Origin: Solidesulfovibrio sp.
GTDB taxonomy: Bacteria; Desulfobacterota; Desulfovibrionia; Desulfovibrionales; Desulfovibrionaceae
Assembly: GCF_029978005.1 (NCBI RefSeq)
Contig: NZ_JARKOZ010000046.1
Location: 124,001-188,000, forward strand
Length of the DNA stretch: 64,000 nucleotides
Direction: 5' to 3'
Shown: positions 3,668 through 51,135 of the stretch, in pieces
Position numbering within the stretch: position 1 is the stretch's first letter
Layout of the letters: the number at the start of each line of letters is the position of its first letter
Translations under genes and position numbers: made by a program
Notes under the pieces: model-generated
What the model was told of the DNA's origin: nothing
Databases searched by the model: none
The model's input: the letters and a program-made list of their open reading frames with translations, nothing else

Positions 3668-4889
3668 AGCTGTATCCTTCTAGAATTTTGGTCAGGCCCG
3701 AAGACAAGGTTGATTGGGGCCGCCAATCCAGTACCCGCTCGGCGAGGCCGATGTCGTGCACGATATTGGCGACGGAATCCTCTATGTTCCTGTGGGAAAT
3801 AGTCGCTTCACGGCCCGAGAGTCGGGCGATCAGGGAAGCGATCTCAATGGTGCTGTGGCTTGTGCCCGAGCCGAGGTTCAAGGTCCCGGAAAAGTCGCGC
3901 TCGAGCGTTTTTACAATGGCGTTCACAAGGTCGTCTATGTAAAGCAGGTCTATCCTCGGGTCACCGTTTCTGTAGCGATGCGTCGTCACCGACTGGCGTT
4001 CATGGATCTCGTGGATGAAGTTGTGCAAGAACTTCGGCCGGCTCACGCCTGGGCCGTACGTCGGAGTCGGCCGGAGGATTGCGCAGGAAAGGGCGAATCT
4101 TTCCTGATACATGCCTATGATCTGTTCGCAGAGGACTTTTGTCGTCCCGGCCGGTCCCTTGGCTTTGAGGGGGCAGGACTCGTCGGCAAGCAGTTCGGTC
4201 GTCGCGTATCCGGAAAATACGTCCCATCCCGACAAATATACCAATTTTATTGCATTTTGTTTACATGTATCGAGCACGTTGGCAAGCATCGTCAGGGAGT
4301 CGCCGAGGGCCTTGTTCGACGTTGAAACCTTGGGATTCGCCAGATGCACTAGGTGGGTGATCCCCTGGCCGCGGGCCAGCGCGTCCAGTTGCACCGTGCC
4401 GCTTTGGAGATCGATCTCCTCACGCGTCGGGGTGAAGACGGCATGGCGCAACGGCAGCCCCGCGACCAGGGCCCGGCCGATGAAACCCGTCGCGCCGGTG
4501 ACCAGCAGACGTACCCCCCCGTCCGCTTTCTCCGGTCCGCGTTCCCCCAGGGCGGCACGCACGACGGCCAGGGGCTCGATCTTGATGTCTTTTTCCCCCG
4601 TGGCCGCCATGGTCCGGGCCACGGCCTGATCAAGGGGCATGCCCTCCTTAAGGGCGAGCATGCCCGAGGCGAGGGCGTTGCTGCGCGAGATGCCGTAATC
4701 GCACGTGACCACCACCCGCCTGCCCTGCCGCAGGGCCGCGAGTCCCTCCTCGATCCGCGCGCGCACGGCCGTGACAGGATTGCCGCCTTTGTCCACGAAG
4801 TCCCGAACGTCGACGACGACCATATCCGTCGTGATGTCGGCGGAATAGGCCGGCCCCGTGCCCAGGGAGGGAGTGATCCATCGGATCAT
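3654..4889 (-). CDS. fusion: dual-specificity-phosphatase-like domain + NAD-dependent epimerase/dehydratase-like domain
   Basis: 411-residue two-domain protein. Residues 1 to about 115 resemble a small dual-specificity phosphatase: a WITPSLGTG start, acidic residues D27/D30, and a P-loop TCDYGISRS in which C63-x5-R69-S70 fits the CX5R(S/T) signature, though the usual His before the Cys is Thr. Residues about 126-411 are an extended SDR with TGATGFIG (131-138) and a late RxxxxYGPG-type segment. The SDR active-site YxxxK is altered: K251 is present but the position four residues before it is Ala (A247), so normal oxidoreductase chemistry is doubtful. It is ATGA-coupled to the ATP-grasp gene upstream. 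One guess is removal of a sugar phosphate or control of a phosphotyrosine kinase. Confidence 0.75.
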   Translation of the reverse strand: MIRWITPSLGTGPAYSADITTDMVVVDVRDFVDKGGNPVTAVRARIEEGLAALRQGRRVVVTCDYGISRSNALASGMLALKEGMPLDQAVARTMAATGEKDIKIEPLAVVRAALGERGPEKADGGVRLLVTGATGFIGRALVAGLPLRHAVFTPTREEIDLQSGTVQLDALARGQGITHLVHLANPKVSTSNKALGDSLTMLANVLDTCKQNAIKLVYLSGWDVFSGYATTELLADESCPLKAKGPAGTTKVLCEQIIGMYQERFALSCAILRPTPTYGPGVSRPKFLHNFIHEIHERQSVTTHRYRNGDPRIDLLYIDDLVNAIVKTLERDFSGTLNLGSGTSHSTIEIASLIARLSGREATISHRNIEDSVANIVHDIGLAERVLDWRPQSTLSSGLTKILEGYSYAGT

Positions 4890-7052: not shown

Positions 7053-8276
7053 TCACCGAGTGTCCAGCCGGGGCACGGCCGTGACGAAACGTCCGCCCCA
7101 GTCGCGGACATAGGCGTGTTGGGCCATGATTTCCCCAAGGATGTTCCAGGGCAGGACGAGCACCACATCGGGTTTGTCGCACCGCAGCCTGTCGGGCTTG
7201 ACCACGGGAATGCGGGAACCGGGCAGATAATGACCCTGCTTGGAGGGCGCGGCGTCGCAGACGTAGGGGACAAGGTCGGGTCGAATGCCGGCGTAGTTGA
7301 GCAGGGTGTTGCCCTTGGCCGCCGCGCCGTAGGCCGCGACCCGCCGGCCCTGGCGTTTCTGCCGGACAAGGAAGGCGCAGAGGTCGTTTTTCACCCGGTT
7401 GGCCCGTTCCTGGAAGCCCCGGTAGGTTTCCAGGCGGCCGAGCCCGAAGGTCGCCTCGGCGGCGAGGGTCCGGAGCACGGAGGGGTCCTCGGGCCGGGCA
7501 GCGCCGGCATGGCAGCCGTAGACGCGCAGGCTGCCGCCGTGGGTGGCGAGTTCCTCCACCCGCCACACGCGCAGGCCGTGGGCGGCGAAGACCTCCCGGA
7601 CCACGGACAGCGACAGATAGGAAAAATGCTCGTGGTAGACCGTGTCGAACTGGACGTGCTCGATCAACCGCAGCAGGTGGGGGAATTCCAGGGTGACCAC
7701 GCCTTCGGAGGCGAGGGCCTCCCGGATGCCGGCGGTGAAGTCGTGGATGTCCGGGACATGGGCGTAGACGTTGTTGCCGACGACGAGATCGGCCTTGCGG
7801 CCTTCGGCGGCAAGCCTGCGGCCCAGAGCCTCGCCGAAGAATTCCCGCAGTACCGGAATGCCGAGCTTCTCGGCGGCCTCGGCCGTGCCGGCCGTGGGCT
7901 CCACCCCCAGGCACGGCACGCCGGCTTCGAGGAAATGGCGCAGGAGGTAGCCGTCGTTGGAGGCGGCCTCGACGACGAGGCTGTCCGGCCCCAGTCCGAG
8001 CAGCTCGCGGATCATGGCGGCGTAACGGGCGGCATGGGCGCACCAGGAGGAGGACACCGAAGAGAAGTAGGCATAATCCGGGGTGAAGAGCGCCTCGGCC
8101 CCTGCATAGTCCTCGGTCTGGACCAGGAAGCAGTTGTGGCACACGAAAAGCCGCAGCGGAAAGGCGGTTTCCGGCGTGCGCAGGGCCGCCTCGGTCAGGT
8201 AGGCGTTGGACGGCGGCGCGCTGCCGAGGTCCAGGAAGACCTCGCGCAGGGGCGTGCGGCAGTTGCGGCAGTTCAC
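7053..8276 (-). CDS. sugar C-methyltransferase (TylCIII/NovU type)
   Basis: 407-residue SAM-dependent methyltransferase with the full three-part architecture of deoxysugar C-methyltransferases: an N-terminal zinc-binding module (C3, C6, C46, C49), a SAM domain with VVEAASNDGYLLRHF, and a C-terminal NAD-like domain (VAAYGAAAKGNTLLNY). Characterised members add a methyl to C3 of a 4-keto deoxysugar nucleotide and so make branched sugars. It starts with GTG at 8276, overlapping the RfbC-like stop as GTGA. Beside rfbF/rfbG it predicts a methyl-branched CDP-deoxysugar. Confidence 0.9.
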   Translation of the reverse strand: MNCRNCRTPLREVFLDLGSAPPSNAYLTEAALRTPETAFPLRLFVCHNCFLVQTEDYAGAEALFTPDYAYFSSVSSSWCAHAARYAAMIRELLGLGPDSLVVEAASNDGYLLRHFLEAGVPCLGVEPTAGTAEAAEKLGIPVLREFFGEALGRRLAAEGRKADLVVGNNVYAHVPDIHDFTAGIREALASEGVVTLEFPHLLRLIEHVQFDTVYHEHFSYLSLSVVREVFAAHGLRVWRVEELATHGGSLRVYGCHAGAARPEDPSVLRTLAAEATFGLGRLETYRGFQERANRVKNDLCAFLVRQKRQGRRVAAYGAAAKGNTLLNYAGIRPDLVPYVCDAAPSKQGHYLPGSRIPVVKPDRLRCDKPDVVLVLPWNILGEIMAQHAYVRDWGGRFVTAVPRLDTR

Positions 8277-44587: not shown

Positions 44588-46636
44588 CTAACAGATCTCC
44601 CCGTAGGTCAGCCGTTCGGCGTATTCCGCCTGCTTGCCCTTGTTCCACAACGACACCGGCCGGTAGTAGCCCACGATGCGCGTGAACACTTCCGAGGGCG
44701 CGCCGCAGTCCGGGCATTCGTGGTGCTCGCCCTTGATGTAGCCGTGGGTCTTGCACACGGAAAACGTGGGCGTGATGGACAGGTACGGAATCTTCGTCAT
44801 GGTGAAGGCCTTGACGATGAAGGATTTCAGCGCCTCGGTGTCGGCCACGGCCTCGCCGAGATAGGTGTGGAAGACCGTGCCGCCGGTGTAGAGCGGCTGG
44901 AGCTTGTTCTGGTGCTCCAGGGCGTAGAACACGTCGCGCGAGAGCCCGACGGGCAGGGTGGTCGAATTGGTGTAATACGGCGTGCCGTTGCCCGAGGCCC
45001 GGATGTCGGCGTAGAGCGCCTTGTCGATCTTCGCCAGGCGGTAGCTCGTGCCCTCGGCCGGCGTGGCCTCCAGGTTGTAGAGGTTGCCCGTCTCCTCCTG
45101 GAAGCGCGAGGTGACCTGGCGCAGGTGAGTAAGCGCCCGGGTCATGAGCCGTAGTCCCGCGTCGGTCTCGATGCCCTTGCCGAGCAGGTTCACGCAGGCC
45201 TCGTGGCCGCCGACCAGGCCGATGGTCGAGAAATGGCCCTTGAAGCCGTTTTTGAGATAGCGCCGCGTCCAAGGAAAAAGCCCGCGCTCCAGGTTGTCGC
45301 TGATCATCTTGCGCTTGAATTCCAGCGCGTCTCGGGCCAGTTCGGCGTATTCGGTGAGCAGGTCCAGGAAGTCCTCCTCGCCCTGGGCCAGATAGGCCAG
45401 CTTGGGGAGGTTGAGCGTCACCACGCCCACGGACCCGGTCAGGTCGCCCGCGCCGAACAGCCCGCCCACCTTGTTGCGCAGCTGCCGCAGGTCCATCTGC
45501 AGCCGGCAGCACATGGAACGCACGTCCTCGGGCGAGAGGTCGGAATTGATGAAGTTCTGGAAGTACGGCGCGCCGTACTTGGCCGTGAGCTCCAAAAGCA
45601 AGGTACCGATCTCGGAATCCCACGGGAAGTCGGCCGTGATGTTGTAGGTGGGGATGGGGAAGGAGAAGATGCGGCCGTGGTAGTCGCCTTCGGCCATGAC
45701 CTCGAGGAAGGCCTTGTTGATCATGGCCATCTCTTCGCCGAAGTCGCCGTAGGTCGCGTCGCGCATGGCCCCGCCCACGATCGCCCCCTCCTTGGCCAGG
45801 TGCCTGGGCGGGGCCAGGTCGAAGGTCAGGTTGGTGAAGGGACTCTGCCCGCCCCAACGCGAGGTGGTGTTGAGGTTGAACACGAACTTCTGCATGGCCT
45901 GCTTGACTTCGCGGTAGGACAGCCCGTCCTCGCGGATGAAGGGGGCCAGGTAGGTGTCCACGTTGTTGAAGGCCTGCGCCCCGGCCCACTCGTTTTGCAG
46001 GGTGCCCAGGAAATTGACCATCTGGCCGAGCACGGCGTCGAAGTGCTTGGCCGGGCCGGCGCAGGAGCGGCCGGGCAGGTTGAAGCCTTCGAGCAGCAGG
46101 TCGCGCAGGCTCCAGCCGGCGCAGTAGCCGGCCAGGCCGAAGGACAGGTCGTGGATGTGGAAATAGCCGTGGTCGTGGGCCTCGCGCACTTCCTGGGGAT
46201 ACTTGCCCAGGGCGTAGCGGGCCTGGACCGTGCCCGAGAGGTGCAGCATGAGCCCCTGGAAGGAGTGGGTCATGTTGGCGTTTTCGGCCACGCGCCAGTC
46301 GGTCTTGGAAATGTAGTTGTCGATGACGTCGGCGATGTCGAGAAAGGCGGCCTTTTGTTCGCGAAGTTCCCGGCGCTTCTCGCGGTAGACGATGTAGCGC
46401 CGGGCCACGGCATAAAGCCGCGACTCCATGAGCACCTGTTCCACCGCGTCCTGGACGTCCTCCTGCTCGGGGACGTCGTTATCGGCAAGCTTGGCTTCGA
46501 CCTTGTGGGCCAGGCGCGTGGAGAGCAGCGGGTCCTGGATGCCGCTGGCCTTGAGAGCCTTCAAAATCGCCTGGGCGATGCGTTGGGTGGACCAGGTCTC
46601 CAGACATCCGTCGCGTTTGCGGATCTGCTTGGGCAT
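44588..46636 (-). CDS. nrdD: anaerobic ribonucleoside-triphosphate reductase (class III)
   Basis: 682-residue glycyl radical enzyme. The N-terminal ATP-cone (residues about 3-90: QIRKRDGCLETWSTQRIAQAI) senses ATP/dATP. The catalytic domain has NPxNLTFD-type (SPFTNLTFDL) and FINSDLSPEDVRSMCCRLQ, with active-site Cys. A zinc site is in FSVCKTHGY and HHECPDCG. The glycyl radical loop IVGYYRPVSLWNKGKQ places the glycine near residue 656. It makes dNTPs without oxygen, with NrdG forming the radical. ATG at 46636; the upstream nrdG frame overlaps its first 158 bases. Confidence 0.94.
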   Translation of the reverse strand: MPKQIRKRDGCLETWSTQRIAQAILKALKASGIQDPLLSTRLAHKVEAKLADNDVPEQEDVQDAVEQVLMESRLYAVARRYIVYREKRRELREQKAAFLDIADVIDNYISKTDWRVAENANMTHSFQGLMLHLSGTVQARYALGKYPQEVREAHDHGYFHIHDLSFGLAGYCAGWSLRDLLLEGFNLPGRSCAGPAKHFDAVLGQMVNFLGTLQNEWAGAQAFNNVDTYLAPFIREDGLSYREVKQAMQKFVFNLNTTSRWGGQSPFTNLTFDLAPPRHLAKEGAIVGGAMRDATYGDFGEEMAMINKAFLEVMAEGDYHGRIFSFPIPTYNITADFPWDSEIGTLLLELTAKYGAPYFQNFINSDLSPEDVRSMCCRLQMDLRQLRNKVGGLFGAGDLTGSVGVVTLNLPKLAYLAQGEEDFLDLLTEYAELARDALEFKRKMISDNLERGLFPWTRRYLKNGFKGHFSTIGLVGGHEACVNLLGKGIETDAGLRLMTRALTHLRQVTSRFQEETGNLYNLEATPAEGTSYRLAKIDKALYADIRASGNGTPYYTNSTTLPVGLSRDVFYALEHQNKLQPLYTGGTVFHTYLGEAVADTEALKSFIVKAFTMTKIPYLSITPTFSVCKTHGYIKGEHHECPDCGAPSEVFTRIVGYYRPVSLWNKGKQAEYAERLTYGEIC

Positions 46637-47270
46637 TGTTCCCTTCCTCCCCCTTGCTCCGTGATGGCTTGCGGTACGGTTGCTCGACAAGTGTGAAACC
46701 CGGCGGCAGGGCCTCCCTGATCTCCCTGACGTCGGTCGGCGACAGTTCCGGCACGAGGGTCGTGCGAAAGGCGAAGCGGTCCGGATGGCGCGCGGCCAGG
46801 GCGAAGACCTCGCCCAGGCGCGCCGAAGCCTCGGCCTCGGTCGCGGCCCCGCCCGTGACCAGGCCGTACTTGGCAAACGGGGCCTTGACGTCCACGGAAA
46901 ACCGGGCCCCGGGAAGGCGCTCGAGCACGGCGGCGACCACGTCGGGCCGCATGCCGTTGGTGTCGATTTTGACCTCCGGCCCCAGGGCGGCCAGCTCGGC
47001 CGCGAAGGCGGACAGGCCCGGGACCAGGGTCGGCTCGCCGCCCGTGACCACGAAGCCGTCGAGCCACTTGGCGTGGGAGGCGGCGAAGGAGCGCACCGAG
47101 GCTCCGGGCAGCGGCCTGCCCGCGGCGAAGGCCAGGGAGGCGTTGTGGCAGTGGGGGCAGCGCAGGTTGCAGCCGCCGAAAAAGAGCACGGCGGAGAGCT
47201 TCCCCGGCCAATCGCAAAAGGACATGGGCTCGATGCCGCGCACGAGCTCCCAGGCTGGCGAGAACGTCAT
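46479..47270 (-). CDS. nrdG: anaerobic RNR-activating radical SAM protein
   Basis: 263-residue radical SAM activase. C34-x3-C38-x2-C41 in GGCNLRCPHC binds the 4Fe-4S cluster, and VTGGEPTL and KIDTNGMRP are the usual SAM-binding parts. It transfers a hydrogen to form the glycyl radical of NrdD. The ATG at 47270 is chosen since WELVRGIEPMSFCDWPG begins the family domain soon after; no ribosome site is visible, and GTG starts nearby are alternatives. The stop lies 158 bases inside nrdD, so the last 50 or so residues are read from nrdD sequence in another frame. Confidence 0.88.
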   Translation of the reverse strand: MTFSPAWELVRGIEPMSFCDWPGKLSAVLFFGGCNLRCPHCHNASLAFAAGRPLPGASVRSFAASHAKWLDGFVVTGGEPTLVPGLSAFAAELAALGPEVKIDTNGMRPDVVAAVLERLPGARFSVDVKAPFAKYGLVTGGAATEAEASARLGEVFALAARHPDRFAFRTTLVPELSPTDVREIREALPPGFTLVEQPYRKPSRSKGEEGNNAQADPQTRRMSGDLVHPTHRPGDFEGSQGQRHPGPAALHAPGPQGRSQACR

Positions 47271-47652
47271 TTTTACAATAAAACCGAAATAATAGAGTGT
47301 GAAACGATCCCGGCCGCTCCCCAACGGCACAGGGTGGAAGCCCCCTCGAAACGCCCCCGAAAGACCACTTCGTCATACGCCGGCCCAGGGCGAATGCAAG
47401 GGGCAAGTTCCCCGCGGCTGCGGGGAAACACGTCAAGGCCGCGCCGGATCGGGCGATTCCCTTTTTTGCGTTTTCGTCAAGAGCGCTCTGTCCGGTCCCG
47501 GCCGCGCGGGGCGGGCCGACGGCCCCGCGCGGCATGACGCGTGGTGGGGGGAACGGGGGACAGGGCCGCTTCCCCGGGCGGAGCCCGCGAGGCGGGGAAG
47601 CGTATCCTTCAAGCCCGGCGGCCGCCTGGGCGGCGCGGGCCCGAAAGCGGCG
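47271..47652 (-). other. gene-free region between kimA end and nrdG start
   Basis: 382 bases without a credible gene. It should carry the nrdG-nrdD promoter; TATTAT (47289-47294, minus) is the best -10 candidate but has no good -35, and no NrdR-type ACACWATATAT box was found. A perfect 10-bp stem at 47567-47602 (CGCTTCCCCG pairing with CGGGGAAGCG, 16-base loop) lies just after the kimA stop and may end that transcript, though it has no U-run. Confidence 0.5.
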
Positions 47653-49671
47653 TCAGGCCCAGTCGGGCTTGTCCAGGCGCACGGGCATGATCACGAAGGG
47701 CAGGCCCATGCGGTAGAGCTGGCGCTGGAGCGTGAAGACCACGTAGTTGTGCAAAAGGCGCGTGACGAAGGTCTCCTTGTCGAACACGAGCTGGCCGCCG
47801 AAGAAGATGGACCGGGGAAAGCGTTCCTGGAGCACCGGGGCCAGTCCGGTCAGCTCGTGGACGATGTCCGTGCCCACGGCCCAGTGGGCCTCGGCGTAGT
47901 AGCCGCGGTCCCGCATGAGCTCGACGTAGACGCCGAGGTCGCGCTCCATGCCGGCCTTGAGCCGGGCCAGTTCGGCCGCGCCCCGGAACACGGCCGCGTC
48001 CACCACGCCGATCTGCACGAACACGTAGTTTTTGATGTCCTTGCCGAAAAGCCGCACCACGGAGAGCAGGGTGTGGATGCCCAGTCCGTTGAAGCCGTTG
48101 ACGAAGATGACGGCCGTGGGCGCGTCGTGGGCGGGTTCGGCGGCCGGCTCGGCGCTTTCCGGGATGGACGGGGTGTAGGGGTTTTGCGGATCGATGACGG
48201 CCCGCAGCACGTCGAGCTTGCGGATGCGCGCGCCCACGGCGTCGTAGTGGCGTTTTATGGCCAGGGCGGCGGCGGCCAGGGCCCCGGTGACGGCGAGCGT
48301 CGCCCAGCCGCCCTCGAAGAACTTCACGCAGGTCACCATGACCAGGATGAAGGTCGTCAGCACGAGGCCCAGGCCGTTGAGGCACAGCCCCTTCTTCCAG
48401 GGCGCGCGCTGGCCGCGCACCTGCCACCAGTGGCGCACCATGCCGAGCTGGGACAGCACGAAGGTGATGAAGACGTTGATGCTGTAGAGCACGATGAGCA
48501 GGTCCACCGAGCCGTGGGAGACGAGCATGAGCGTAAGCGCCGCCGCGCCCATGAGCAGGATGCCGTTCTGGGTGACGAGGCGGTCCGAGAGCAGGGCGAA
48601 CCGGGCCGGCAGCCAGCGGTCGATGGCCATGTTGGAGAGCACCCGCGGGCCGTCCACGAAGCCGGCCTGGGCGGCCACGAACAGGAGCAGGGCCTCGGAG
48701 ACCAGCGTGACCAGCACGAAGCCGCCGCCGAGGTCCGGGCCCCAGCCGGCGGTCACGGCGGAAAAGAGCACGGCGTTGAGGGTCTTGCCCTCCTGCGGCC
48801 GGACCCCGAAGAGCAGGTAGCACACGATGAGCCCGACCACGGTGACGGCCAGGGACAGGGCCATGTAGAGCATGGTGCGCTTGCCGGTCTTTTCGCGGGG
48901 CTCGCGCAGGATGGGCAGGCCGTTGGACACGGCCTCGATGCCGGTGTAGGTGCCCGCGCCCATGCTGTAGGCGTGCAGCACCAGGAGGAACATGCCGAGC
49001 AGGCCGAGTTCGCCGTGGGCCGCGCCCACGTCCCGGGTCAGCCGGGCGGCCAGGGCCGGCATGTCCGACACGTGGGCGAAGATGCCGTAGCCGATGACCA
49101 CGACGTGGGTGACCACGAAGGTCATGAAGATCGGCACCAGGGCCATGACCGATTCCTTGACCCCGCGCAGGTTGAGCACGATCAGCGCCGCCACGCCGGC
49201 CACGGCCACGGGCAGCCGGTAGGGCAGCCAGTCCGCGGGCAGGAAGCTGAACACGGCGTCCGCGCCGCTGGCCACGGACAGGGTGATGGTCAGCGCATAG
49301 TCGATGAGCAGGGCGCAGCCGGAGACCATGCCCACCTTGGGGGAGAGCAGCTTGCTCGCCACCACGTAACCGCCGCCGCCGGTGGGGAAGAGCTCGATGA
49401 TCTGGGAATAGGCGGCGCTGATGACGAAGATGGTCAGGGCGGTGCCGAGCGCCACGAACACGGACAGGAAGGGATGTTCGCCCAGGGCCAGGAAGGCCTC
49501 GGCCGGACCGTAGCAGGACGAGGACAGGCCGTCGGCCCCCAGACCCACCCAGGCGAAGAACGCCACCAGGGAAAGCTTGTGGAAGATGGACTGGTCGGCG
49601 AGGTTGATGCTGTCGCCGATGACGGCGCGGCGCAGCAGCCGCGACACGGGGAGGCGTTTTTCCTGGGACAT
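47653..49671 (-). CDS. kimA: KimA-type APC superfamily potassium transporter
   Basis: 672-residue protein. About 12 transmembrane helices span residues 20-450 with the APC features FPTGGGGYVVA and GAGTYTGIEAVSNG, then a cytoplasmic C-terminal domain of about 200 residues (VIFVNGFNGLG and EAHWAVGTDIVHELTG). This architecture is that of KimA/YdaO, a high-affinity proton-coupled K+ importer inhibited by c-di-AMP. The ATG at 49671 has GAAGGA eight bases upstream. The c-di-AMP riboswitch about 250 bases upstream supports both the identification and ligand-controlled expression. Confidence 0.85.
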   Translation of the reverse strand: MSQEKRLPVSRLLRRAVIGDSINLADQSIFHKLSLVAFFAWVGLGADGLSSSCYGPAEAFLALGEHPFLSVFVALGTALTIFVISAAYSQIIELFPTGGGGYVVASKLLSPKVGMVSGCALLIDYALTITLSVASGADAVFSFLPADWLPYRLPVAVAGVAALIVLNLRGVKESVMALVPIFMTFVVTHVVVIGYGIFAHVSDMPALAARLTRDVGAAHGELGLLGMFLLVLHAYSMGAGTYTGIEAVSNGLPILREPREKTGKRTMLYMALSLAVTVVGLIVCYLLFGVRPQEGKTLNAVLFSAVTAGWGPDLGGGFVLVTLVSEALLLFVAAQAGFVDGPRVLSNMAIDRWLPARFALLSDRLVTQNGILLMGAAALTLMLVSHGSVDLLIVLYSINVFITFVLSQLGMVRHWWQVRGQRAPWKKGLCLNGLGLVLTTFILVMVTCVKFFEGGWATLAVTGALAAAALAIKRHYDAVGARIRKLDVLRAVIDPQNPYTPSIPESAEPAAEPAHDAPTAVIFVNGFNGLGIHTLLSVVRLFGKDIKNYVFVQIGVVDAAVFRGAAELARLKAGMERDLGVYVELMRDRGYYAEAHWAVGTDIVHELTGLAPVLQERFPRSIFFGGQLVFDKETFVTRLLHNYVVFTLQRQLYRMGLPFVIMPVRLDKPDWA

Positions 49672-49920
49672 GGCGTTTTCCTTCAAAGATGCGGGCGTCT
49701 GGAAAGACCCTCGCGGCGACGGGGCCGCGAAGGCGCGCAAAGGGGCAAGGCCGGCCTCAGGGCACGGCGAGGTCCTGACGCTTCTGCGACGGACGGACGA
49801 AATTGGCGGAAAACGCGAAGAAACGGAAACGCGGCGCGGCAAGGCGCGCCAAAGAGCCGGGCATGGCATCCCTCCGGACGACCGGTTGCGGGAAACCAGC
49901 GGCAAAGCGACGGTTTCCCC
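49672..49920 (-). other. leader between the c-di-AMP riboswitch and kimA
   Basis: 249 bases of the kimA 5' untranslated region. The ribosome site AAGGA is next to the ATG. No classical terminator with a U-run is obvious between the riboswitch and the gene, so the control may be translational or involve Rho. No small gene is supported. Confidence 0.5.
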
Positions 49921-50040
49921 TTCGACGTCTACGAGGTTAGCTGACGGGCTCGGGCCGAAGAGGTTGCCCTACGCCATGCTGGCGATGCGCCCCGGGAAGT
50001 GGGTCCCCCGTTCCCGCCACGGGCGGGACTCGACGTTCGT
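49921..50040 (-). promoter_or_regulatory. c-di-AMP (ydaO/yuaA) riboswitch
   Basis: On the minus strand the sequence carries the hallmark blocks in order: P1 5' strand CGAACGTC (50039-50032 region), hairpin CCCGCC-CGT-GGCGGG, the conserved GGGGGACCCA, GGGGCGCATC, GTAGGGCAACCTCTTCGG, CCCGAGCCCGTCAGC and TAACCTCGTAGACGTCG closing P1 (GACGTCG). These match the well-known ydaO consensus, including GTCAGCTAACCTCGTA. It precedes a KimA-type transporter, the classical regulon. In bacteria that use it, c-di-AMP binding lowers transporter expression. Confidence 0.9.
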
Positions 50041-50043
50041 TGG

Positions 50044-50072
50044 GAGGTAACGCCGGAAGCGGCCGGCGTCAA
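50044..50072 (-). promoter_or_regulatory. candidate promoter of the kimA transcript
   Basis: On the minus strand TTGACG (50072-50067) and TACCTC (50049-50044) are 17 bases apart, directly before the riboswitch. The -10 match is weak. It lies between the end of the upstream glycosyltransferase gene (50089) and the riboswitch start, which is where the leader should begin. Confidence 0.45.
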
Positions 50073-50088: not shown

Positions 50089-51135
50089 TTAGGCGCTGCG
50101 GCGTTCCTGGCCGGGCAGCAGGCCGTGGGCGGCCAGAAAGTTCTCGGGCGTGCCGGGATGCGTGTGCATCTTGTGGACGAACACCTTGTCGAAGTCCTCG
50201 GCGAAGGTGTCGGCGCGGCCTTCCCGGGCGATGATGCCGCCGACGAGGCGGATGAAGTCCTGGCGCATCTCCCGGATGCGCAGCAGGGCGCGCAGGCGGA
50301 TCTCCCGGGGCGGGATCTTCAGCCGGACGAGTTCCGCCACGGCCTTGGCCACGGCCGTGGCGCTCGGCGGCACGATGCGGGAGATTTCCGGGTCCAGGAA
50401 CAGGTCCCGTCCGCCCTGGCTCGGGGTGGAGACCACGGGCAGGCCGGCGAGCTGGTATTCCGTGGTGGCGTAGTTGCCGCCTTCCTTTTCCGACAGGCAA
50501 AGGCCCACCCGGGCCGCGTTGTAGGTCTTGTTGATCTCGCGGGGGGACAGGAGGCGGTACTGGCCGGTGCGCGGGTCGGCGTTGAGGGGGATCATGCCCG
50601 GCATGGCGCGGGTCAGGGAGCGCAGGTAGCTGTCCTGGGCATCCCGGGGGCCGGGCATGTAGTAGTAGACGAGGCCCCAGGAGGGGATGCGCCGGGCCAG
50701 AATATGGCGTTTGAAGTGGCTCAGGCGCGCCGTGTACACGGCGTCCATGGTCTTGGCCACGCCCGGGATGGGATGGAACAGGCGCTCGTCGAGAAAGGCG
50801 TTGTGGTGGCAGTGGTAGTGCGGCAGGCCGTGGCTTTCCAGGACCTTGTCCTCCTGCGGGTCGTTGGTCAGGAAGATGTAGCGGTGCAGGGGATACATGT
50901 CCGTCATGAGGGAATAGAGCTGGCGCGTCTGGGCCAGCAGGCGCTCGTCGAGGAGCGACCACCAGTTGCCCATGAGGAAATAGGCCTTGCGGTCGGTCAG
51001 GAAGGGGCCGAGCTGCATGGGCGCGCCGAGCGGCGCGCCGTAGGAGATGATGATCAGCGGCTCGCGGCTGATCAGGTGGCAGCGCAGGGTTTCCTTGATG
51101 GAAAGACGGTAGGTGATGACGGGGGCGGCGGTCAT
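50089..51135 (-). CDS. glycosyltransferase-like protein (GT-B fold)
   Basis: 348-residue protein. The second half resembles a glycosyltransferase C-terminal domain: NKTYNAARVGLCLSEKEGGNYATTEYQLAGLPVVSTPSQGG is close to the EGxNxxxxEALACGxPVV element of GT4-like enzymes. The N-terminal half is less familiar (IIISYGAPLGAPM, YFLMGNWWSLLDERLL). It probably transfers a sugar in the cytoplasm. The gene ends 49 bases before the kimA riboswitch. Confidence 0.65.
   Translation of the reverse strand: MTAAPVITYRLSIKETLRCHLISREPLIIISYGAPLGAPMQLGPFLTDRKAYFLMGNWWSLLDERLLAQTRQLYSLMTDMYPLHRYIFLTNDPQEDKVLESHGLPHYHCHHNAFLDERLFHPIPGVAKTMDAVYTARLSHFKRHILARRIPSWGLVYYYMPGPRDAQDSYLRSLTRAMPGMIPLNADPRTGQYRLLSPREINKTYNAARVGLCLSEKEGGNYATTEYQLAGLPVVSTPSQGGRDLFLDPEISRIVPPSATAVAKAVAELVRLKIPPREIRLRALLRIREMRQDFIRLVGGIIAREGRADTFAEDFDKVFVHKMHTHPGTPENFLAAHGLLPGQERRSA

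Follow-up and report, generated by a model that had tools for sequence, protein, structure and literature searches.

A c-di-AMP riboswitch upstream of the potassium importer gene kimA in Solidesulfovibrio, with a leader open reading frame between aptamer and gene

Analysing a 64,000-nt stretch of a Solidesulfovibrio sp. genome (hereafter the window), we located a riboswitch of the known c-di-AMP class upstream of kimA, the gene of a KimA-type potassium importer, in an organism that also encodes the diadenylate cyclase CdaA; this is almost certainly one more case of an already known system. Taken alone, the riboswitch is a textbook example; the only unusual part of the locus is a 35-codon leader open reading frame (leader ORF) lying between the aptamer and kimA, which probably makes the window's system a new variant. 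A preliminary description of this site, made from the sequence alone, was supported on the riboswitch class, on KimA and on the c-di-AMP synthase, but had overlooked this leader ORF. The explanation that we favour, with slightly more belief than doubt, is that an RF00379 OFF switch acts on kimA through the leader ORF. Under this explanation, c-di-AMP produced by CdaA would bind the aptamer when potassium is plentiful and lower the production of KimA; the expression platform would control a Shine-Dalgarno (SD) sequence, not a terminator, and, as this SD starts the leader ORF, c-di-AMP would shut off leader-ORF translation and thereby kimA. The control of potassium uptake by c-di-AMP in sulfate reducers is now directly testable.

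Aptamer, target gene and c-di-AMP enzymes

The elements of the locus upstream of and including kimA, leaving aside the leader itself, are as follows.

50067 to 50072, minus strand: TTGACG, putative -35 box, at the same place in 8/8 leaders of the genus
50045 to 50050, minus strand: TTACCT, putative weak -10 box, 16 nt past the -35 box, read from the sequence
49911 to 50045, minus strand: c-di-AMP (ydaO/yuaA) riboswitch aptamer, from RF00379 score and covariation
47653 to 49671, minus strand: kimA, encoding a 672-aa KimA-type K+ importer with a cytosolic C-terminal domain, from PDB sequence, profile and fold matches

Scanning the whole 64-kb window with cmscan returned a sole match above the gathering score, to RF00379 (c-di-AMP, ydaO/yuaA) at 49911-50045 (-), with 90.7 bits (E 5.7e-20), well over the cut-off of 38, and with full-length coverage of the model (1-134 of 134). 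This is the only RF00379 copy in the genome. The ydaO signature blocks named by the preliminary description are present in the RF00379 alignment, and the significant full-length Infernal match on the minus strand confirms its assignment; the span it gave (49921-50072) designated the same site, the real aptamer ends being 50045 and 49911, and its 250 bases to the transporter were close to the 239 nt computed between the aptamer end and the kimA ATG. In the aptamer alignment of 27 relatives from the family (26 distinct), 99.6% of the cells were paired and 10 of 29 pairs were changed on both sides, values favoured by the structure being the RNAalifold consensus of the same alignment. Neither value was reached by any of 500 shuffles, the count of further pair types was reached by 66/500, and slid versions of the alignment paired in 33.5-43.0% of cells. 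Many core columns were moreover invariant among the relatives.

These invariant columns and covarying helices argue against the aptamer being a relict or specific for another ligand, as do the potassium transporter genes found downstream of the riboswitch in 41/41 listed family matches and the diadenylate-cyclase (DAC) domain detected in 30 of the 32 riboswitch-bearing genomes of the family, the other two being assemblies of 820 and 590 contigs. We consider that reading highly improbable; the RNA at 49911-50045 (-) is predicted to bind c-di-AMP.

Upstream of the aptamer, position 50072, where the preliminary span ended, is the first base of the TTGACG box, and relatives carry TTAC, TTAT or TATC near the putative -10 position. 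Since a strict sigma-70 consensus scan found no promoter, recovering neither the -35 nor the -10 box, the -35 assignment is suggestive only. A weakly matched glycosyltransferase gene (50089-51135, minus strand) ends 43 nt before the aptamer, and kimA may therefore also receive read-through from it.

The claim of a KimA-type transporter was borne out by sequence, profile and structure. The protein matched Bacillus subtilis KimA (PDB 6s3k) with an E-value of 4.6e-61, as its sole PDB sequence match at ≤0.001, and a 23-sequence profile matched KimA at 6.2e-82. Its predicted structure (mean pLDDT 82.5) retrieved KimA chains as the top three PDB matches in Foldseek, the best being c-di-AMP-bound KimA (8b70, E 1.1e-27). 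These alignments spanned 634-649 columns for the 672-aa model, with an rmsd of ~14 Å which implies that domain placement differs between model and KimA. This predicted fold also supports the cytoplasmic C-terminal domain proposed earlier, which by sequence alone reached 1.8 bits only. The counterparts of the KimA potassium ligands Asp36, Tyr43, Thr230 and Tyr377 (PMC10284832, in part), read from alignments, were D47, Y54, T243 and Y396, none of which varies among the 23 sequences; potassium transport is predicted for this protein. The window protein thus shares with B. subtilis KimA (6s3k, 8b70) the homology of the transmembrane domain and the four potassium ligands, while the c-di-AMP pocket partly differs: His579 and Asn580 are kept in the weak 1.8-bit domain alignment, Arg337 aligns with an Ala with an Arg adjacent, and Gln581 and Ser582 are not kept at their columns, making a c-di-AMP pocket in the window's own KimA uncertain. 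The protein alignment was built without L091, L045 and L086 (a stop lies close to where their match ends) and without L037, L048 and L049. Among the best 80 of 258 loci, the closest named relatives of kimA belonged to Solidesulfovibrio alcoholivorans (91%), S. magneticus (85%) and a Desulfovibrio sp. metagenome-assembled genome (91%). The genes directly downstream of kimA, at 44588-47330 (-), are those of an anaerobic ribonucleotide reductase of the NRDD type, carrying an ATP-cone, and of a radical SAM protein that is probably its activase.

The c-di-AMP synthase predicted by the preliminary description was found elsewhere in the genome. Its single DAC domain belongs to a protein identified as CdaA by NCBIfam TIGR00159 (225.2 bits for a cut-off of 188.8), composed of CdaA_N and DAC and encoded between a folP-like pterin-binding enzyme and a YbbR protein. 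A PgpH-like protein with 7TMR-HDED, 7TM and HD domains is encoded at another place in the genome. A Kup transporter is encoded as well, without a riboswitch since the single RF00379 copy is at kimA.

The leader ORF between aptamer and kimA

The 239 nt separating the aptamer from kimA contain a short ORF with its own SD.

49871 to 49875, minus strand: GGAGG, Shine-Dalgarno of the leader ORF, inside the near-invariant ACCGGTCGTCCGGAGGGATGCC block, in 8/8 leaders of the genus
49757 to 49864, minus strand: leader ORF (uORF) of 35 codons, MPGSLARLAAPRFRFFAFSANFVRPSQKRQDLAVP, from the same-place ORF in relatives and a length test

A leader ORF of 29-40 codons occupied the same place in 14 of 19 kimA leaders of the family, including 8/8 in the genus, with L032/L113, L033/L025, L034/L004 and L057/L031, taken from their equal sequence features to be the same genomes, each counted once. 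Within the genus the ORF is 35-40 codons long and leaves a gap of 55-147 nt to kimA (85 nt in the window); the single g24 leader has 29 codons and a gap of 97 nt, and the five g29 leaders (5/5) have 33-35 codons and a gap of only 9-14 nt. The ORF was absent from the five other family leaders (g10 2/2, g28 3/3). Outside the family, a scan for ORFs of at least 8 codons with an SD recovered it in 0/26 riboswitch-kimA leaders; the aptamer lies over 100 nt from kimA in only 13 of these 26, and some of their kimA starts were poorly placed. A conserved SD and start followed by a bounded ORF at the platform thus distinguished the family (14/19) from the leaders outside it (0/26). The counts exclude three other kinds of frame: a GTG frame of 2 codons within the leader ORF of the window, one of 107 codons that overlaps kimA in L025/L033, and a long overlapping one in L031/L057.

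All eight genus leaders carry the ACCGGTCGTCCGGAGGGATGCC block, L113 with a single substitution and L011 lacking one base, and an ATG follows it after 0-2 bases. Beyond the aptamer, this SD and start formed the most conserved part of all eight leaders, and conservation collapsed past the ATG: the leader ORFs of the window and L113 differ at 41% of their bases, with no gap column. The leader peptide showed pN/pS ratios of 0.60-1.16 in 10 pairs, versus 0.10-0.28 across the initial 100 kimA codons, and a conserved stalling (peptide-sensing) leader peptide was consequently rejected. In dinucleotide shuffles, 28-39 codons after the ATG arose in 0.045-0.146 per locus and any stop before kimA in 0.19-0.91; as the length range was set post hoc and the loci are related by descent, we do not combine these values into a joint probability. 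From these patterns of conservation, we read the leader ORF as probably maintained for the act of its translation and not for the peptide.

Two other readings of this region have to be weighed. A plain riboswitch control of kimA, in which the aptamer would act directly on transcription or on kimA's own start and the short ORF would be incidental, would agree with the lack of conservation of the leader peptide and with the leaders that do without the ORF (5/19 in the family and 26/26 outside, 13 of them with more than 100 nt of room). It would leave the conserved SD and start above a diverged ORF body in 8/8 genus leaders, and the near-constant length of the ORF, unaccounted for. The second reading starts KimA at the first ATG of GGGATGCC (49869), as an N-terminally extended protein under the platform SD; from this ATG the frame runs open into kimA in the window, L112 and L011, but the ATG lies in another frame in 4/8 genus members and is cut off by a stop in L029, making the extension impossible in 5/8. 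Only 1 nt, moreover, separates the SD from this ATG, and the MSQEKR start of kimA has an SD and an ATG of its own; we regard the extended protein as unlikely. Where the first and second ATG are in different frames (L002, L113, L112 and L011), it is the frame of the second that closes and the frame of the first that stays open to kimA.

Expression platform and coupling to kimA

Between the aptamer and the leader ORF, two segments could form the platform.

49912 to 49920, minus strand: GGGGAAACC, 5' arm of the platform hairpin directly past P1, conserved in genus leaders
49890 to 49897, minus strand: GGTTTCCC arm, predicted to pair alternatively with 49912-49920 or with the SD/start region GGGATGCC

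The hairpin GGGGAAACC...GGTTTCCC follows the aptamer in 8/8 genus leaders, as GGGGGACCC...GGGTTCCC in L030/L027, where an A-U pair is changed to C-G on both sides, and with one mismatch in L113. The evidence for control of the leader-ORF SD is strongest in the two sister genera g24 and g29, where the segment following P1 pairs with that SD in 6/6 leaders by 10-13 contiguous base pairs, at an offset of 31-33 from the TCAGCTAACC core, with 0 or 1 of 300 shuffles as good (p ≤0.003); the same segment paired with kimA's own SD no better than chance (p 0.14-0.74). From one locus to another, base pairs next to the SD core are replaced in both partners (e.g. G-C to T-A or A-T). This pairing in 6/6 and the compensatory flanking changes make a translational platform well supported in g24 and g29, and the choice of the leader ORF over kimA as its target speaks against plain control of kimA by the riboswitch.

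Other leaders of the family showed different arrangements. In g28, which lacks the leader ORF, the segment after P1 pairs with kimA's own SD (p 0.013-0.05, 3/3), as plain control would have it, whereas the g10 kimA leaders showed no such pairing (p 0.43 and 0.65). Among the 13 of 16 Kup leaders in L003-L024 that were compared (L017, L018 and L020 left out), pairing of this segment with the kup SD reached p ≤0.06 in 7/13; the other 6/13 were five g38 leaders (0.14-0.31) and L010 (0.54), and the four g38 leaders examined for contiguous pairs keep 8 of them despite these values.

Within the window's own genus, the segment after P1 paired with the leader-ORF SD no better than in shuffles (p 0.41-0.99, 8/8), and among six genus leaders compared only L112 kept a 6-bp anti-SD; because this anti-SD was not found, sequestration by that helix is not claimed for the genus. 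Folds with the aptamer forced disagree among its members: the SD becomes more accessible in L025 (0.55-0.70 vs 0.11-0.24 for 4/5 bases) and in L011 (~0.7 vs 0.1 for 4/5 bases), opposite to an OFF switch, and stays paired except for one base in L030 and L027. In both g29 leaders folded, the SD was paired with and without the forced aptamer, so that a ligand-dependent opening is not predicted there. The platform helix is the weakest link of our explanation for the window itself, and the absence of clear SD control in the forced folds of the genus speaks for plain control of kimA. With the anti-SD helix missing there, both the switching helix and the coupling step are hypothetical in this genus.

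As to transcription, a single terminator-like site was detected for 0.7 expected by chance, followed only by a broken T run CGTTTCCGTT, and an intrinsic terminator was rejected. The lack of a terminator above chance is a further point against plain control of kimA, which, with the evidence on both sides, we hold to be a real though doubtful possibility. Under the leader-ORF explanation, the coupling would depend on the gap between the two frames. In the sister genus g29, with its 9-14 nt, a leader ORF left untranslated would entail the loss of termination-reinitiation and an inactive kimA, and this gap would suit termination-reinitiation as reported for ppe2 of Mycobacterium tuberculosis (PMC11260477, in part). 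Over the 85 nt of the window, kimA would more likely be turned off by Rho acting on the untranslated C-rich leader; the longer gap, the excess of C over G, the Rho protein encoded in the genome and the lack of a convincing terminator would fit Rho-dependent polarity as at the M. tuberculosis pe20 Mbox (PMC12810186, in part). C exceeds G in 14/14 leader ORFs (C 38-45% and G 23-33% in the genus), but this bias is extreme in some stretches only, modest for the window's leader ORF (tail 0.056), and unspecific, the first 105 nt of kimA being also richer in C than in G and leaders without the ORF reaching similar values, so that it points to the Rho step only weakly. At the level of the Desulfovibrionaceae, we therefore propose only tentatively, with somewhat more doubt than belief, that the c-di-AMP riboswitch is a translational switch on a leader ORF whose peptide is free to vary, kimA needing this ORF to be translated, by reinitiation at 9-14 nt (g29) or through Rho polarity at 55-147 nt (Solidesulfovibrio).

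Known systems, distribution and kimA/kup pairs

The riboswitch of B. subtilis ydaO, which we take to be kimA, belongs to the same RF00379 class, as found in the B. subtilis control genome, and has the same target gene. The B. subtilis ydaO/kimA riboswitch has a terminator as its platform. By contrast, no intrinsic terminator is evident at the site described here, where a leader ORF separates the aptamer from kimA. Likenesses to this arrangement come from M. tuberculosis. In ppe2, a translational OFF B12 riboswitch is followed by a translated uORF essential for the downstream gene, with termination-reinitiation; riboswitch and uORF are alike, but ppe2 has another ligand and aptamer and was shown by experiment (PMC11260477, in part). 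At the pe20 Mbox, SD sequestration, a small uORF as first regulated ORF and a proposed Rho-dependent polarity have been described, with the main termination site placed by the authors upstream of the small ORF (PMC12810186, in part). The proposed system would share with it riboswitch, SD sequestration, small ORF, downstream ion uptake and Rho, and differs by the Mg2+ ligand of the Mbox and by its uORF, which is described as highly conserved, unlike the leader peptide of the window. If the leader-ORF reading is true, c-di-AMP riboswitches too would act by way of a small ORF, as the B12 and Mg2+ switches of M. tuberculosis do.

Searches of the open-access literature returned nothing on point for c-di-AMP riboswitches in this lineage; for such a riboswitch with a uORF, none of the matches listed contained the phrase 'c-di-AMP riboswitch', which leaves absence unproven. 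A 2013 survey covers Desulfovibrionales, with 10 genomes, and gives ydaO-yuaA the figure 59 in its table (PMC3766115, in part); its supplements may already list such sites. The ydaO class is also named among riboswitches with interdomain docking, described with translational examples (PMC10907184, in part), so that a c-di-AMP switch acting on translation may in itself already be known.

The preliminary description implied that c-di-AMP control in a diderm sulfate reducer would be novel, an implication weakened by the distribution of the system. Of the genomes sampled, 32/149 in the family (6/44 genera) and 40/297 in the phylum (39 above the cut-off) carry RF00379, and a DAC domain was detected in 129/149 family genomes. 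In the genus, 8/14 genomes carry the riboswitch, each time directly upstream of kimA, and 9/14 carry kimA, the ninth gene, with no riboswitch seen, lying 94 nt from a contig end. Among the 41 family matches, 30 were taken as loci, with a KimA-like gene directly downstream in 14 and Kup (PF02705) in 16; the 11 others comprised three KimA by tblastn (L138, L139, L146) and eight Kup, read by eye from a shared VVYGDIGTSPLY stretch. Loci L114-L136, from the phylum sample, were outside the loci analysed. A family-aptamer model was also run over kimA-like loci of many phyla, taking the best 80 of 258; it found the riboswitch in 30 at E <1e-8, and 26 of these 30 lie outside the family, including Verrucomicrobia/Opitutaceae, Omnitrophota and Kiritimatiellae. 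These family, phylum and cross-phylum counts indicate that a c-di-AMP riboswitch before kimA is common in diderms.

In five g29 genomes (L138-L142), kimA and kup share a neighbourhood, each behind its own c-di-AMP riboswitch. Across the aptamer, the kimA and kup leaders hardly differ in L138 and L139 but are more divergent in L140-L142, and kup begins with codons resembling those of the kimA leader ORF in 4/5 (L138, L139, L141 and L142, more weakly in L139; not in L140), e.g. MPAVSLAVMRPW and MPAVHLAVLRPF in L138, with a shared g29 start MPAVxLAVxRP. The simplest reading of these sequences would be that one leader was copied in front of the other gene, in a direction that they leave unsettled. 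A riboswitch with the start of one potassium transporter gene may thus have been copied before another, this start turning into a regulatory ORF, and, if the leader-ORF reading is true, the kimA/kup pairs would show the birth of an ORF by copying of a riboswitch and a gene's first codons. Some of these genomes also carry a long N-terminal extension of kup before the transporter domain.

Several loci departed from the common organisation. L036, a Desulfovibrionaceae kimA relative (65% identity), had no aptamer-model match in its locus, and a Verrucomicrobia contig (L068) carried two same-strand aptamer matches (4698-4862 and 7286-7451) around one kimA-like gene. The riboswitch lies more than 400 nt before the kimA-like gene in L067, L093 and L102, with room for a small gene or a long platform, and in L010, L024 and L026 a frame (MFAIIGLVVV...), which by eye we presume to be motA-like, lies beyond the riboswitch on its other side, on the opposite strand.
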